Part shown: piece after piece, positions 1,250 through 25,793 of the stretch
Position numbering within the stretch: position 1 is the stretch's first letter
Layout: each line of letters starts with the position of its first letter
Assembly (NCBI RefSeq): GCF_020164595.1
Contig: NZ_JAIQZE010000013.1
Location: forward strand, 1 to 64,000
Direction of reading: 5' to 3'
DNA from: Psychroflexus longus
Lineage (GTDB): Bacteria > Bacteroidota > Bacteroidia > Flavobacteriales > Flavobacteriaceae
Length of the DNA stretch: 64,000 nt
Notes under the pieces: model-generated
What the model saw: only the letters and a program-made list of their open reading frames with translations
Databases searched by the model: none
What the model was told of the DNA's origin: nothing
Translations under genes and position numbers: made by a program

Positions 1250-1388
1250 AAAAGAGTTTAATCAATATTGAATTTAATTTGAAAATCATGTTTGTCTACC
1301 TTCTTAAAAAAACAAAATAAAATACTCTTCTTTATTCAAATAATAAGCATCTTTAATTTCAAAATTAACCAATCTAAATTCTTTTATC

Positions 1389-1991
1389 ATGAAACTGCTT
1401 ATTCCTATTTGTATATTATGTTTATCCATCCCCCAATTGTCTTTTTCTCAACAAGATAGTCCTGATCATCTCAATTACGGAGTGAAAGCTGGAAAGAGCT
1501 TTTACAGTTTTTCTGAAGATGCCGTAGAGCCCAGAACTGATCTTTCCTTTTACGCTGGAGGTTTTGTAAGCACTAGCTTTTCTTCGAAACTTAAACTGCA
1601 AACTGAACTATTATTTGAGGCTTATAATTTGAGGGATAATAACTTTTTCAACATTGAAACAAACATTTTACAATTAAGCGTTCCCGTGTTTGTAAAATTT
1701 GAAGCACTTCCCAACCTATTTTTGAATGCTGGTGGATTTGCGGGTTACCGAATAGACGTTAACACTGATGGTGACAACATCATAAATAATAATCTCATAA
1801 AAGACTGGGATGCTGGTTTGCTTACTGGTGCAGACTATCATTTTGATAATGGGCTATTTTTTGAAATTAGATATAATTATGGATTAGTCGATATTCAAAA
1901 TCAACCTCAATCAGACTTAGCTGATCTTATTATTTATGATAGTGAAATCAAAACCAGATCCTTCTTTATAGGTGTGGGCTTTCAATTTTAG
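1389..1991 (+). CDS. Secreted outer-membrane beta-barrel protein (OMP_b-brl_2 type)
   Basis: The 200-residue product has a signal peptide (MKLLIPICILCLSIPQLSFS, cleavage just before QQ) and then alternating aromatic/hydrophobic strands. It starts with the GVKAG entry typical of small Bacteroidota porin-like barrels and ends in an aromatic residue (GVGFQF), the usual C-terminal beta signal for outer-membrane insertion. Eight strands are expected for this size. It is a single gene between two minus-strand genes. Function is unknown; such barrels are usually structural or adhesive rather than true porins. Confidence 0.75.
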   Translation: MKLLIPICILCLSIPQLSFSQQDSPDHLNYGVKAGKSFYSFSEDAVEPRTDLSFYAGGFVSTSFSSKLKLQTELLFEAYNLRDNNFFNIETNILQLSVPVFVKFEALPNLFLNAGGFAGYRIDVNTDGDNIINNNLIKDWDAGLLTGADYHFDNGLFFEIRYNYGLVDIQNQPQSDLADLIIYDSEIKTRSFFIGVGFQF

Positions 1992-20306: not shown

Positions 20307-21833
20307 ATGACTTTAAATCATCTACGTTTTACTTTACTTTTTCTTAGCTTAGGAACGATTTGTTTTGCGCAGGATTTAAGACCAGATACGAAAAATCGAT
20401 CTTCGCAAAAAGTAGAACTGCATAAGATTGAAGTAGATTCATTGGAGTTGATTTTGGAAGATTACAGACAATCTATGAAATTGGATTCGCTATGGAGAAT
20501 CCAATTGACAGATCAAAGCTATTCCAGACGTTTAGAAAATGTCATCAAAGACAGTCTGGAAAATAAGGCCGTTATCACAGAAATATCCACAGAGCTTTTA
20601 AAAGAACGTTTATCAACTTTAAACGCAAAAACTCCATTCAATATTGAATACAATGAAAGTTTGGAAAGTGTCATCGGTTATTTCTTAAGGAGAGAAAAAC
20701 AAGGAACGGAAAGACTTATAGGATTAAGTAAATTTTACTTTCCCATGTTTGAAGCCACACTGGATAAATATGACGTTCCGCTTGAGATGAAATATTTAGC
20801 TTTAGTAGAATCTGCCTTAAATCCTCAGGCAAAATCCAGAGTTGGCGCCACAGGCTTATGGCAATTTATGTACAGCACAGGAAAAATGTACGATCTTGAT
20901 GTGAGTAGTTATGTGGACGAGCGTATGGATCCCGTGGCTTCAACGGAAGCTGCTGCAAAGTATTTGAAAAGGTTATACCACATGTTCGACGATTGGGATC
21001 TGGCATTGGCGGCTTACAATTCCGGACCAGGAAACGTGTCCAAAGCCATACGCCGAAGCGGAGGAGAAACCAATTACTGGAAACTCAGAAGATATTTACC
21101 ACGAGAAACTGCTGGCTACGTACCTTCCTTTCAAGCCATGCTTTACCTCTATGAATATGCAGACGAACACGGGTTCCAGCCTCAGCGTCCAAAATCAACT
21201 TATTATGGTACCGATACCATTAGAGTAAAGCAGCTCATCACTCTAGACCAGGTGGCCAAGGTTACCCAGACCGATAAAGAATTGCTGGAATTTCTCAACC
21301 CCAGCTATAAATTAGGAATTGTACCTTTTGAAGAAAATAAATCCTATTATTTGCGCCTTCCATATGAAAAATCAGGATTGTTTGTAGCCAATGAAAATGA
21401 GATCTATGGCTTTGCTAAAGAGCGTCTTGCTGAAGCTAAAGAGGCTCTCCCAAAAAATTATAAAGCCGACGATAAGATCAATTATTACGTCAAGTCTGGG
21501 GATTATCTTGGAAGAATTGCAGAAAAATTTGGAGTCGGTGTAAGCCAGATCAAATCCTGGAATAGTTTGAGAGGGAACAACTTGTATATAGGACAAAAGC
21601 TTATCATTTATCCAAGAAATGTAAATGCTATGGTGGAAGCTCAGTCTAAAACTACTCCAGCCAAATCTTCAACTGAAAGCAAAACTGAATTTTACAATGT
21701 CAAACCCGGAGATTCACTTTGGACCATATCCAGAAAATACCCTGGCATCAGTGTTGAAGACTTAAAGTCCATCAACAAACTGAATAACAGTCAATTAAAG
21801 CCGGGAATGAAACTCAAAGTGTCCAAAAGCTAA
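20307..21833 (+). CDS. Membrane-bound lytic murein transglycosylase D-like (SLT + 2 LysM)
   Basis: The enzyme cleaves the MurNAc-GlcNAc bond of peptidoglycan with formation of 1,6-anhydro ends. The 508-residue product has a signal peptide ending in CFA-Q, a coiled N-terminal region, an SLT domain at about 145-265 with catalytic Glu168 in ALVESALNPQA, and the GATGLWQFM and AAYNSGPGNV motifs. Two LysM repeats follow at about 390-433 and 462-507, typical of MltD. Its stop overlaps the stop of the convergent 21830-25234 gene by four bases, so there is no room for a separate terminator between them. Confidence 0.9.
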   Translation: MTLNHLRFTLLFLSLGTICFAQDLRPDTKNRSSQKVELHKIEVDSLELILEDYRQSMKLDSLWRIQLTDQSYSRRLENVIKDSLENKAVITEISTELLKERLSTLNAKTPFNIEYNESLESVIGYFLRREKQGTERLIGLSKFYFPMFEATLDKYDVPLEMKYLALVESALNPQAKSRVGATGLWQFMYSTGKMYDLDVSSYVDERMDPVASTEAAAKYLKRLYHMFDDWDLALAAYNSGPGNVSKAIRRSGGETNYWKLRRYLPRETAGYVPSFQAMLYLYEYADEHGFQPQRPKSTYYGTDTIRVKQLITLDQVAKVTQTDKELLEFLNPSYKLGIVPFEENKSYYLRLPYEKSGLFVANENEIYGFAKERLAEAKEALPKNYKADDKINYYVKSGDYLGRIAEKFGVGVSQIKSWNSLRGNNLYIGQKLIIYPRNVNAMVEAQSKTTPAKSSTESKTEFYNVKPGDSLWTISRKYPGISVEDLKSINKLNNSQLKPGMKLKVSKS

Positions 21834-24800
21834 AAGAACGCTCTTAATTGAACACTTCCCGTGTGTATTGCACTTACATTTTCACTTTTTCTGCCGAAAT
21901 AGGTCAAGTTAAGATCTAAAAAATCTGTGATTTTCTTTTGGAGAAACAACGACCAAGTAAAGTTATCATTGGGCAATAAGCCTTCCAGCAATTGGTAAGC
22001 CACCGGAGAAAATGTACTCCCTTCAAATTTATTTTGAATGTAATTCATCTCTCCGTTAATGCTATATTTTTGAGCATTATTTAAGGTAAACGATAAGCCA
22101 AAGGTTTGCTGATTCAAAAATTCCTGCTCTCCTACCTGGTTTTCCTTGGAAGCTAATTCATAGAATACATCAAAACGTTTGTCACCAAGCAAATAAGACA
22201 ATTTAGGATTTAAAGAAAAACCCTCAATTTCAAAATTTCTATTCTGAAATCGATCCGAAAAACTCTCGGAAGAATTAAGGTCCTGAGTTAATGTCAACAA
22301 CCAACTCTCCTGAAACTTATGAATAAACTTGAGCTCATGCAAAAGATTTGAGCTTTCCTGAAGCCCTAAAAGACTGAAGTTTTTAGTTGTATTCTGTGTG
22401 AAATTATAAGACGTTGTAAATTTTTGAAGACTACGATTAAAAAATAGAATATTTCTAAACGTCGTATTTTCTCCCAAAATATTTTCACCACTTCCTCCAA
22501 AGGGATTTAGACTCAATGAATTCCCATCTTTACGAAATTTCTTATCCAGCAATAGTGAAGTTTGATTGTAAAACTTAGAAGCTATTTTTTTCCAGCCTTG
22601 TTTATTCTGCCAGGTTTGAAAATTTAAAGTGAGTTGTTGGCTAAATCGAGTTTGATTGGTTCTCACAAAAATTTGATTGGGTAGTAATATCCTCACAAAT
22701 CTCCCTTCATCCTGAAACTGAGCAATTTCAAATTCATTCAACTCTTGGACTCCATTACCATTATAATCTATCCAGGTGTACTGTCCTTGACCCGGCTCAA
22801 CTTCGAGATAGGTGAATTCCTGCTGTGCAATACTTCCACTATTGGTTTCATATGAAGTGTTTAGATTAACCAGCCTATCCCACAAGTTTTGAGAATAGTT
22901 GACTCTGGAGTTCAAACTTTGCTCATCTGCCCGGTCCTGCTCATTAAATTTCAGGTTCCTGAGATTAGCAAATACTCTGAGTTTGGTCGCTTGCGTATTG
23001 ACCAATTGAGACCTCACAAAGTAATTATCGGACGAGTTGACGCGTTGCAGATTGTTATTTCTTAAACTATCATTTTCTCGATACCTGTAACCCAATTCTG
23101 CATAAACATTTGTAGAATCTCCCACCCCGGAGAACACTTCATAACTAGCAAAGCGCTGAGTATTGGGGGTGAATTCTTCATTGTCTACTCTCGATTCCTG
23201 ATTATCCTCCAAATTGTAACGCAAACCCGACCAAAATTTTCTAAAATCATAAATTCCAGAGACACTTGCCCTCACAAATTTAGAATTCAGAAATGAAGAT
23301 TCACTATCCATATAACTGGCGTTCGCATCTATTCTGAATTTGCTTTGAACTTGCCTGGCGCTTATAGAGTGTTTTTCGCCAAGAAAATCTTTTGAATATT
23401 CCAAACGCTGAAAGCGGTACTGAGTATTGCTTTCCAAATTATTTCTGAAATCAAAGCCAGTATCGACAAAGATTTGATCTCCAGTTGGATTAAAAAGATT
23501 CCAATCTCTGGTAAATTCAACATTGTACAATCGTTCAATACTCTTATAAGTTTCTTCTATAAAATTCAAATTTCCAAAAACATCCAGCTTTTTATCTGCA
23601 CCCTGTTGATATAGAGTCTGATTAATAGATAATTGAGTTGCCAGGCCACGATTATCTCCCTGGTCTCTATCAGAAAATAAATTTTCATCATTATTACTAG
23701 CTGCGACTTCAAACTGAACCGTTGTTTTTTCTGAAGGAGAATAGACGCCATTGAGCATAGCAATTTGGAGTTTGGTAGGAGCAAAAAGCTTGACGACAGG
23801 TTCAAAATTACCCTGTGGAATACCATCGATTGGTGAGACATATTCATAAATATTAGCAATAGCATCTCGACTTGATAATATATAATTCCCTTGATTGGTG
23901 CCCAGATTGGTAAACCGAACGTTGAACAATTCAGCTTCGGGATCGTTGGAAAACACGAACACTTCCCTGCCATCACGAAGTTCTTTTTCGTATAAAATTC
24001 TGTTTTCAGAATATTCAGCAGGAACTGCGCTCAGCGCAAACATTTGGTCTTGATTATCGCCAGCGTCCTCTAAAGCATTCACTTGCTCATCTGTAAGACT
24101 TTGTTGTAAAGGCTGATTTTTGAGGTCATTTTCATTGTAAAGAAATCCATTCAGTTGAAGTGCTTCAGACCTAAATCGAGATCCTGTTGTGGCAACGATT
24201 CTTGAAAAGTTTCTGTCGGAGACCTGATATTCAACAACAATTCGCATTTCAGAAGTAATAGGAAAAGTAGAATTAAAGATTAGTTCGCCAGCATTATAGT
24301 CTATGAGATAGTCTTCGTTTTCTCCCCGGGTTAATAGCCTTCCATTGACATAGACATCTTCACTTCCAGAGATGATCAAGACAAAAAGTTCACCATTTTG
24401 TCCCACCAGTTTATAAGGTCCTTGATTTCCCTCCTGAGCAGTCAGCTCACTCCGTGTAAAAACCCCTCTCACTAATGCGCCAGCGGAGTAAACTTCGGTT
24501 TGGCGCTTTTCATTACCTACATCTGCAGAGAGCAAAAGTCCTTGCACCCGCTTGGTGTAGGAAGCAAAAAAAGATTCGTTTTCTATCAAGTCAATATCAC
24601 CAGCACGTATTCTCCACTTCTCAGCTTCCAATTCAATAAAAATCTGGTCAAATTCATCTAGTTGTTGGGTATATCCTCCCGACTGAGTTGGTGCATTGTC
24701 GTCCTGAATGGAAGCCTTCAAAGACACATTTTCAGAAATTTTTCCGGAGATCTGCAAATCAAGTTCAGATCTTACCACTGCATTTTGATTATTTCCAACA

Positions 24801-25234
24801 CTTATTGCTCTTGAGATGCTTCCGCTGGTATTAAGTCCGGCAAATGGGACAAAACTGCTAGGCTGTCGCTGTTGCTGTAATTCATACAAATTATCAACAG
24901 GGTTTCCTGTATCAATAATCAGGCTTTCGTCCAGGCCTTTGTAAGTTTTGGTTAGAGATTCGGGATACTTTAAATAAGTAACTATCAAACTATCATAGTT
25001 TGATTTTAATTCTGAAGAAGGAAACAGCTGAGCCTTGGGAAAATCAATCCTAAAAAAGGTGGATTCAATGTCTAAACTATCGGTGGTTTGTAATCTGAAT
25101 TGAAATGGAGCAATACTTACCTCTTCGAGTTGAATGGTATCTTGGACACTTACAGTTTTGGTGACTAAGCCAGACTGACCAAAAATTGAGCTGATGCCGC
25201 AACACAAAAAGACAAGTAAGAGATAATGCCTCAT
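21830..25234 (-). CDS. Large outer-membrane/secreted beta-rich protein, conserved in Bacteroidota, unknown function
   Basis: The 1134-residue product has a signal peptide (MRHYLLLVFLCCGISSIFG). An N-terminal region of about 130 residues is followed by repeated beta strands. The segment SGSEDVYVNGRLLTRGENED then DYNAGELIFN (about residues 290-325) matches a motif also seen in SprA-like gliding/secretion proteins. The C-terminal half is a run of amphipathic strands rich in Gln, Asn and Phe, ending in QLRAFF, compatible with a large barrel. At 1134 residues it is much shorter than SprA (over 2000). An unusual peptide-plus-terminator unit lies just upstream (25310-25417). Function unknown. Confidence 0.6.
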   Translation of the reverse strand: MRHYLLLVFLCCGISSIFGQSGLVTKTVSVQDTIQLEEVSIAPFQFRLQTTDSLDIESTFFRIDFPKAQLFPSSELKSNYDSLIVTYLKYPESLTKTYKGLDESLIIDTGNPVDNLYELQQQRQPSSFVPFAGLNTSGSISRAISVGNNQNAVVRSELDLQISGKISENVSLKASIQDDNAPTQSGGYTQQLDEFDQIFIELEAEKWRIRAGDIDLIENESFFASYTKRVQGLLLSADVGNEKRQTEVYSAGALVRGVFTRSELTAQEGNQGPYKLVGQNGELFVLIISGSEDVYVNGRLLTRGENEDYLIDYNAGELIFNSTFPITSEMRIVVEYQVSDRNFSRIVATTGSRFRSEALQLNGFLYNENDLKNQPLQQSLTDEQVNALEDAGDNQDQMFALSAVPAEYSENRILYEKELRDGREVFVFSNDPEAELFNVRFTNLGTNQGNYILSSRDAIANIYEYVSPIDGIPQGNFEPVVKLFAPTKLQIAMLNGVYSPSEKTTVQFEVAASNNDENLFSDRDQGDNRGLATQLSINQTLYQQGADKKLDVFGNLNFIEETYKSIERLYNVEFTRDWNLFNPTGDQIFVDTGFDFRNNLESNTQYRFQRLEYSKDFLGEKHSISARQVQSKFRIDANASYMDSESSFLNSKFVRASVSGIYDFRKFWSGLRYNLEDNQESRVDNEEFTPNTQRFASYEVFSGVGDSTNVYAELGYRYRENDSLRNNNLQRVNSSDNYFVRSQLVNTQATKLRVFANLRNLKFNEQDRADEQSLNSRVNYSQNLWDRLVNLNTSYETNSGSIAQQEFTYLEVEPGQGQYTWIDYNGNGVQELNEFEIAQFQDEGRFVRILLPNQIFVRTNQTRFSQQLTLNFQTWQNKQGWKKIASKFYNQTSLLLDKKFRKDGNSLSLNPFGGSGENILGENTTFRNILFFNRSLQKFTTSYNFTQNTTKNFSLLGLQESSNLLHELKFIHKFQESWLLTLTQDLNSSESFSDRFQNRNFEIEGFSLNPKLSYLLGDKRFDVFYELASKENQVGEQEFLNQQTFGLSFTLNNAQKYSINGEMNYIQNKFEGSTFSPVAYQLLEGLLPNDNFTWSLFLQKKITDFLDLNLTYFGRKSENVSAIHTGSVQLRAFF

Positions 25235-25318
25235 GTGTGTAAAACTAAAGCTTTACTAAAATATTTTAATCACTTACAAAAAAGTAATTGAGGAAATCAG
25301 GAAAGTTTATAAAAACAC

Positions 25319-25346
25319 AAAGCCTCGGTTATGAATCCGAGGCTTT
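25319..25346 (-). terminator. Intrinsic terminator of the short unit
   Basis: AAAGCCTCGG and CCGAGGCTTT form ten perfect pairs around an eight-base loop. The U-rich tract GTGTTTTT follows on the minus strand, so the terminator is directional. In the minus sense the left arm encodes the last codons of the peptide and the loop holds its stop. Confidence 0.8.
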
Positions 25347-25379
25347 GCTAATTAACCAATCTATTATGAAAAACTTCAT
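25329..25379 (-). CDS. 16-residue peptide ORF overlapping the terminator
   Basis: ATG at 25379 opens a 16-codon frame, MKFFIIDWLISKASDS, with TAA at 25329-25331 inside the terminator loop. The last codons (Lys-Ala-Ser-Asp-Ser) form the 5' arm of the stem. A ribosome reaching the stop would cover that arm and prevent the hairpin. ATG lies seven bases after the -7 box, so the message would be nearly leaderless. Expression is not proven; the geometry is that of a leader peptide. Confidence 0.4.
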   Translation of the reverse strand: MKFFIIDWLISKASDS

Positions 25380-25386
25380 CCTGATA

Positions 25387-25417
25387 CAAATATAGAAGAT
25401 TTGTTTACTTTTCAAAA
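25387..25417 (-). promoter_or_regulatory. Near-consensus -33/-7 promoter
   Basis: On the minus strand TTTTG (25413-25417) is followed after 18 bases by TATATTTG (25387-25394), matching the Bacteroidota TTTG/TAnnTTTG promoter with good spacing. It lies between the stop of the Atl-like gene and the short terminated unit. Confidence 0.7.
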
Positions 25418-25451: not shown

Positions 25452-25793
25452 TTAATTTTCAAAGCTCTCGTTAACAGGGGGTTGCCAATAAATATTTTTA
25501 AAGTTTTTTATTTTATCATTTTCAATTTCCACACCCTCTTCTTCCAATAGCCGTTGCATCGTATTCTGCCCAGGAAAATGATGTTTACCTGTTAACATTC
25601 CATTTCTATTCACCACACGATGCGCTGGCAAATCCCGATCCAGCTTCACACAGGCATTCATGGCATATCCAACAGTTCTGGCACTTTTTGCAGCACCAAT
25701 AGATTTTGCAATTGCTCCGTAGCTGGTCACTTTACCCTCTGGAATTTGTGCAACAACTTCGTAAACCCTTTCAAAAAAATCTGAATTAGCCAT
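25452..25793 (-). CDS. Alkyltransferase-like (Atl) protein, MGMT family without the catalytic Cys
   Basis: The 113-residue product matches the DNA-binding domain of O6-alkylguanine-DNA alkyltransferase, including GKVTSYGAIAK and the arginine finger in SARTVGYAM. The acceptor motif PCHRV reads PAHRV here (Ala57), so it cannot accept alkyl groups. Atl proteins bind O6-alkylguanine lesions and hand them to nucleotide excision repair. It is the third gene of a trmB-lysE-atl operon with three-base gaps, and is about as long as other Atl proteins. Confidence 0.88.
   Translation of the reverse strand: MANSDFFERVYEVVAQIPEGKVTSYGAIAKSIGAAKSARTVGYAMNACVKLDRDLPAHRVVNRNGMLTGKHHFPGQNTMQRLLEEEGVEIENDKIKNFKNIYWQPPVNESFEN

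Follow-up and report, generated by a model that had tools for sequence, protein, structure and literature searches.

A predicted small noncoding RNA gene family with a constant terminator-adjacent core in Psychroflexus and related Flavobacteriaceae

A short open reading frame enclosed by a promoter-like sequence and a terminator, just before a large gene, raises the question of whether it encodes a peptide, controls its neighbour or merely lies within an RNA. Such a frame occurs in the stretch of Psychroflexus DNA analysed here (64,000 nt; the window), where a first-pass annotation had read it as a translated peptide governing readthrough into a 1134-residue protein gene, with a small RNA as one alternative. 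All elements of the locus are on the minus strand. Its upstream neighbour (25452..25793, minus strand) encodes a protein whose DNA-binding domain is that of 6-O-methylguanine DNA methyltransferase (PF01035), and its downstream neighbour is the 1134-aa open reading frame (21830..25234, minus strand), in which a search with Pfam and NCBIfam profiles found no match.

The elements named in the annotation were all found in their given places: a TTTTG serving as the putative -33 element of a sigma-A-type promoter (25413..25417), a spacer of 18 bases, the -7 element TATATTTG (25387..25394; consensus TAnnTTTG), the seven bases TATCAGG, an ATG at 25379-25377, and a 16-codon frame, MKFFIIDWLISKASDS (25329..25379), whose stop codon (25331-25329) falls inside the 8-base terminator loop. 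The hairpin of this intrinsic terminator (25317..25348) is present, as sequence, fold and covariation all indicate, with 12 pairs (7 G-C) rather than the ten that had been given; GTTTTT follows (GTTTTTATAA directly 3' of the hairpin at 25348-25317), and the 1134-aa gene does lie downstream, its ATG 82 bases from the stem end. The -7 element recurs in all 10 aligned window-type rows covering its position, an 11th such row, cut from the stretch neighbouring L014, having no coverage there. A consensus promoter scanner, for which the consensus is TTGACA/TATAAT, made no call for the window promoter. In a study of Flavobacterium psychrophilum, the promoter box spans -12 to -5 (PMC9723704), and the RNA in the window is expected to start near 25382.

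Covariance model R1 delimits a predicted intergenic sRNA gene of ~74 nt (25309..25382, minus strand), matching the window at 25310-25382 with 84 bits (E 1.0e-10), the window copy being among the model's training copies. From its 5' end, the predicted RNA comprises a mini-hairpin, AUGAA-GUUU-UUCAU (25366..25379), supported by fold and alignment and with a loop length that differs among copies; a 17-nt unpaired stretch, AAUAGAUUGGUUAAUUA (25349..25365), the putative seed, within which the nine bases GAUUGGUUA (25353..25361) do not vary among the 41 aligned copies; and the terminator. The predicted fold has an energy of -23 kcal/mol, whereas 200 shuffles averaged -11.6 +/- 2.6 (z -4.45).

Comparison of the copies distinguishes an RNA from a peptide. 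In the terminator, both sides have changed in all 12 pairs (112 cells against 32.6 +/- 6.7 in shuffles, with 0 of 500 reaching the observed values). The near-constant core consists of ATGAA-loop-TTCAT followed by AATAGATTGGTTA(A/G)TTA, and the terminator sequence is free to change; the stem of the 5' hairpin is nearly unchanging in the close family and hence has no covariation support there. Copies usually have 5 or 6 T in the loop of this first hairpin, and the reading frame shifts accordingly. Among 76 predicted RNAs (36 sigma-A-type and 40 ECF-type, with 20 of 96 places excluded as having no recognised promoter), the 16-aa MKFFII peptide occurs in 7, an MKFFII frame of 17-24 aa in a further 9, and a 10-aa MKFFHN peptide in 21, the remainder having other short frames or none. 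An ATG is absent from the 32 nt preceding the core TTGG in 22 of the 76, a figure counted from the core; the alternative count of 19/76, over the first 25 nt, hinges on the assigned RNA start. Predicted lengths are 65-78 nt for the sigma-A-type RNAs and 75-129 nt for the ECF-type RNAs, and the 5' hairpin is predicted in 74 of the 76 folds. The mean unpaired probability of the putative seed is 0.81 in the former class and 0.70 in the latter, with whole-RNA means of 0.45 and 0.40. Because the terminator compensates, the core is constant and the frame is not kept, we favour an RNA over a peptide. The annotation's check of codons against stem conservation thus falls on the side of the stem, and its conserved translated frame overlapping the terminator is not borne out; its small RNA alternative, given the compensated stem, dispersed copies and unkept frame, fits best, the flanking promoter and Rho-independent terminator around an RNA with no conserved frame being present as predictions from sequence.

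We consider it probable that the locus is a stand-alone gene for a noncoding RNA of ~74 nt, one of a paralogous family, that would act in trans on mRNAs. At the level of sequence, the promoter elements, the terminator, the constant core with no constant frame and the presence at several chromosomal places are established. The RNA, if made and acting in trans, would pair through its unpaired GAUUGGUUA(A/G)UUA with mRNA start regions and block their translation, its ends being protected by the mini-hairpin on the 5' side and by the terminator on the other. An ECF sigma factor may control the ancestral gene, which lies between tyrS and a LuxE-like gene; in Psychroflexus the gene would have been copied and brought under the housekeeping sigma factor, making the window copy one derived paralogue. 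Should ECF-driven members silence outer-membrane protein mRNAs, they would be alike in action to MicA and RybB of enterobacteria. RNA regulation in Flavobacteriaceae is little known, and an sRNA gene family is of interest for that reason.

The closest known system, and our best reading by analogy, is FopS, in that the RNA may work as a trans-acting base-pairing sRNA of that kind. FopS of Bacteroides thetaiotaomicron is described as a 14-member paralogous sRNA family, reported to act in trans on mRNA start regions, with FopS-10 blocking translation of the mRNA for a SusC-type transporter; the near-identical copies are ~65-70 nt long, 9 of 14 intergenic, with sigma-A-type promoters, a conserved seed before the Rho-independent terminator and a single-stranded 5' stretch (PMC11697453). 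Compared by description, the present family shares the near-identical copies, the similar length, the seed before the terminator and the sigma-A-type promoters. It differs in having 1-6 model matches per genome rather than 14 members, a mini-hairpin before the seed rather than a single-stranded 5' stretch, and many relatives with ECF-type promoters. The Rfam check of the block proposed by the annotation gave no match at gathering score; a permissive search gave 7 matches far under gathering scores, and BSnc120, rnk_pseudo and EF3314_EF3315, each overlapping a copy (L032, L021 and L031, respectively) at sub-gathering scores, were taken as chance. A search of the own genome for RRM_1 (PF00076), the domain of the FopS partner RbpB, gave no match at E <= 0.001; of 14 control genomes, 2 were positive in the same search, one of them Bacteroides ihuae. 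We do not claim FopS membership because of the missing Rfam match and because RRM_1 was not found in the own genome. Rfp11 of F. psychrophilum, a putative regulatory RNA with an ECF-type promoter (SM6, CGT box), strong predicted structure and conservation in other species (PMC9723704), could be the orthologue of the RNA at tyrS. GibS of Bacteroides, a trans-acting sRNA, resembles the predicted RNA by description in that its 5' seed is unpaired and conserved and base-pairs with mRNA start regions; it is ~145 nt long, unlike the ~74-nt RNA here, and has a different promoter motif, PM2 (PMC7366714). Literature on this RNA was not found among open-licence PMC papers. Trans-acting sRNAs seem little studied in Flavobacteriaceae; flavobacterial transcription studies include PMC9723704 and PMC5395568.

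A fixed seed makes targets directly testable. The window holds one candidate, a weak lead: an outer-membrane beta-barrel gene (1389-1991) whose 5' region includes a 14-nt perfect complement, AATTAACCAATCTA (1363..1376, plus strand). This candidate is poorly conserved; the protein has matches in 9 of 27 genomes, its own included, and the locus of the 49%-identical match contains no AACCAAT. Duplex energies with 675 start regions of the own genome were better for the core (top-20 mean -18.7) than for shuffled cores (-16.8 +/- 0.37, 30 shuffles). Secreted-type proteins, as assigned by a crude hydropathy rule to 202 of the 675 proteins, made up 20-21 of the 40 best duplexes of the whole 5' part, against 11.5 +/- 2.9 (40 shuffles, maximum 19), and 12-13 of the 40 best seed-only duplexes, against 12.4 +/- 3.3, showing no preference. 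Because the enrichment vanishes with the seed alone, its probable source is the pairing of UUUUUUCAU opposite AUGAAA. Start regions held more complementary words than the whole-sequence background, an excess no longer clear in the 675 own start regions when compared with a second-order Markov expectation. A search of the own genome allowing up to 3 mismatches gave 49 matches to the core complement and 52 to the reversed control; the two exact matches are the RNA genes themselves.

Across genomes, the pattern TAACCAATC-N0-22-ATGAA had 127 matches in 27 genomes against 26 for the reversed pattern, of which 63 are the complementary strand of RNA genes and 64 remain; 4 of 15 remaining loci that were opened precede an ORF. 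One of these pattern loci, porV-like as named by eye (L193), apparently overlaps the gene before it at that gene's end. TAACTAACCAA-N7-24-ATGA had 39 matches in 30 of 60 genomes, against 23 reversed; of 30 loci opened, 11 precede an ORF and several are further sRNA-like genes read backwards. Ten of the 11 ORFs were domain-scanned, and 3 have carboxypeptidase-regulatory, TonB-plug or beta-barrel domains, the others being a C25 peptidase, a PKD and a fasciclin protein (1 each) and 4 of other kinds. Envelope-protein mRNAs as targets are a weak lead, and our confidence in the preferred reading is slightly reduced because both the own-genome search for the core complement and the TAACTAACCAA-N7-24-ATGA pattern were negative.

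The unpaired stretch might instead bind a protein, the noncoding RNA being a sponge or chaperone ligand, as CsrB or 6S RNA are, and its copies titrating that protein. Such a role would fit the constancy of a short unpaired stretch, the several copies and the fact that complementary sites are not clearly enriched in start regions; however, the site is single, not repeated, in close-family copies, and a protein of the one family searched, RRM_1, was not found in the own genome. We regard protein binding as unlikely and return to the trans-acting RNA as the preferred reading.

The places at which the RNA gene lies bear on its origin. Among 73 neighbour rows, which include tandem copies sharing one gene and 2 chance pattern matches, the next gene is tyrS, convergent, in 42 (identified by a TIGR00234 match for one member and by clustering for others), and the same-strand upstream gene is in 36 one that we take to be LuxE-like. 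In the family search, tyrS is found at 24 of the 30 loci that matched best, and the LuxE-like gene at 20. When tyrS loci were chosen blind to the RNA, a strict rule placed it behind tyrS in 12 of 32 Flavobacteriaceae, own genome included, a count that leaves out four loci positive by eye (L234, L244, L247 and L252), scores as absent one locus (L249) whose genome carries the RNA on a different contig, and lacks one family genome with no locus (G030). By the same rule, the RNA was present at 0 of 26 tyrS loci from other families of the order, one of which (L268) has 8 bases only behind tyrS; one genome of the order (G063) had no tyrS match. The gene order of the window, with a methyltransferase-like gene upstream and a 1134-aa-type gene downstream, occurs in 12 of the 73 rows. 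Because the tyrS place is the commonest and the window order is confined to those rows, the window place looks like that of a derived paralogue. Homologues of the 1134-aa neighbour adjoin the RNA gene in other genomes of the genus.

Two promoter classes precede the one core. With the ECF type defined as TGTAA[AGT]-N15/16-CG[AT]C upstream and the sigma-A type as TAnnTTTG close before the core, 95 non-redundant places, many of them orthologues and so not independent, divide into 40 ECF-type, 35 sigma-A-type, 20 with neither and 0 with both. Scanned over spacings of 6 to 26, the ECF motif pair is 16 apart in 35 cases, 15 in 5 and 26 in one, with no others; so sharp a peak would hardly arise unless the promoter were real. 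In F. psychrophilum, the ECF-type motif SM6, with its CGT box, is similar to the CG[AT]C box (PMC9723704). An unchanged core, a free terminator and two interchangeable promoter classes make a natural experiment on the shift of an sRNA regulon between sigma factors. At tyrS the hairpin sits where two genes converge, a position at which one would expect a two-way terminator, so that the element could be a mere terminator with a conserved flank and no functional RNA; the promoter elements at fixed spacing in front, conservation higher in the core than in the terminator, and copies away from tyrS make this improbable.

The predicted sRNA gene is widespread in the genus. Model R1, built from 41 of 64 collected copies, matches 64 copies in 26 of 27 genomes, 1-6 each (E <= 0.001), the single genome without a match being 52%-complete; the block is thus more than a chance arrangement. 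In a sample of the family, R1 matches 88 of 397 genomes (E <= 0.01), weaker matches being uncertain. Searched with a 126-base block, the genus proved to have copies throughout, and the own genome to have a second one (contig C1, 241077-241136), which sits at tyrS and, as the window copy does, has a sigma-A-type promoter. When named genomes were scanned with a pattern, 56 stretches matched, with Psychroflexus, Mesonia, Gillisia, Salegentibacter, Mesohalobacter and Haloflavibacter among them; two matches, in Ferroacidibacillus and Patescibacteria, look like chance. Chance matches (L052 and L058) and copies in which a script found no hairpin (L017, L028 and L056) were left out of the copy lists. 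In the own genome (864 kb), TTGGTTA followed by a terminator occurs at 2 of 162 places, both of them the known copies, and permuted words at 25 of 4754. A diverged third copy is also present there (L315 ~1494-1590, plus strand; G000:C43 near 78912-78948), with GATTGGTTAGTTAGG before a hairpin and T run and TGTAAG-N16-CTAC upstream; it follows what, by eye, appears to be a uvrA end. Tandem pairs 138-332 bases apart, differing in terminators and upstream sequences, occur in L014, L023, L024, L026, L030, L065 and L077, and four Gillisia-like copies (L199, L203, L078 and L089) have, upstream of the core, an extra 5' inverted repeat, GTAAAC...GTTTAC, with a second TTGGTTAGG in the loop. Being multicopy and partly tandem, the element might be a dispersed repeat or mobile element of the REP type and not a regulatory gene, which is very improbable given its low copy number, the same place kept across genera and the two promoter classes before one core.

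An attenuator with leader peptide for the 1134-aa gene, as the annotation had inferred from an anatomy that the window locus does display, and to which an MKFFII frame of 16-24 aa in 16 of 76 predicted RNAs and the gene order kept in 12 window-type rows might lend weight, is scarcely credible when the frame shifts among copies, an ATG near the core is missing in 22 of 76, the usual downstream neighbour is a convergent tyrS and one locus (L048) has two tandem copies before the same gene. At tyrS places no gene is left to attenuate, because tyrS is convergent and the RNA points at its 3' end, and the regulated same-strand gene presumed directly downstream is not general among relatives.

The putative seed has a wider circle in the Flavobacteriaceae. 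Of 100 family genomes, 69 contain the 12-mer TTGGTTAGTTAG, which has 177 places in all; the reversed word has 106. At 30 places opened a terminator comes next at 14, compared with 9 when 600 positions were drawn at random from these loci. These opened places include at least 2 further sRNA-like groups, similar between genera, and the pattern suggests, from sequence, a superfamily with one common terminator-adjacent seed. It is conceivable, and we offer it tentatively, that there is a large undescribed Flavobacteriaceae sRNA superfamily, with the seed UUGGUUAGUUAG or a near variant abutting a terminator, whether at tyrS, in 3' UTRs or behind other genes, of which the window gene is one branch; the tyrS branch would be ECF-driven in many genera, and in Psychroflexus rewired to the housekeeping sigma factor and then multiplied, the whole serving, with no need of an RRM protein, as a common brake on envelope proteins at the post-transcriptional level. 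The odds of this are slightly reduced because an ECF-like motif was present at 0 of the 30 opened TTGGTTAGTTAG places.

Several minor observations concern these places. One sRNA-like group (L323, L325, L334 and L340, near 1501) has TTGGTTAGTTAG before a terminator and, in 3 of 4, GTTTATTGAGTGGTTACTTTAAAC upstream. In another (L322, L329 and L345, near 1501), TTGAGATTTCATAATTGAAAT precedes TTGGTTAGTTAGTTG and a terminator whose loop region contains CTACTCAATCG; this group is nearly identical in three genera and apparently lies at a gene's 3' end. The own genome has two more exact TTGGTTAGTTAG places, G000:C34:206286 and G000:C40:123250.
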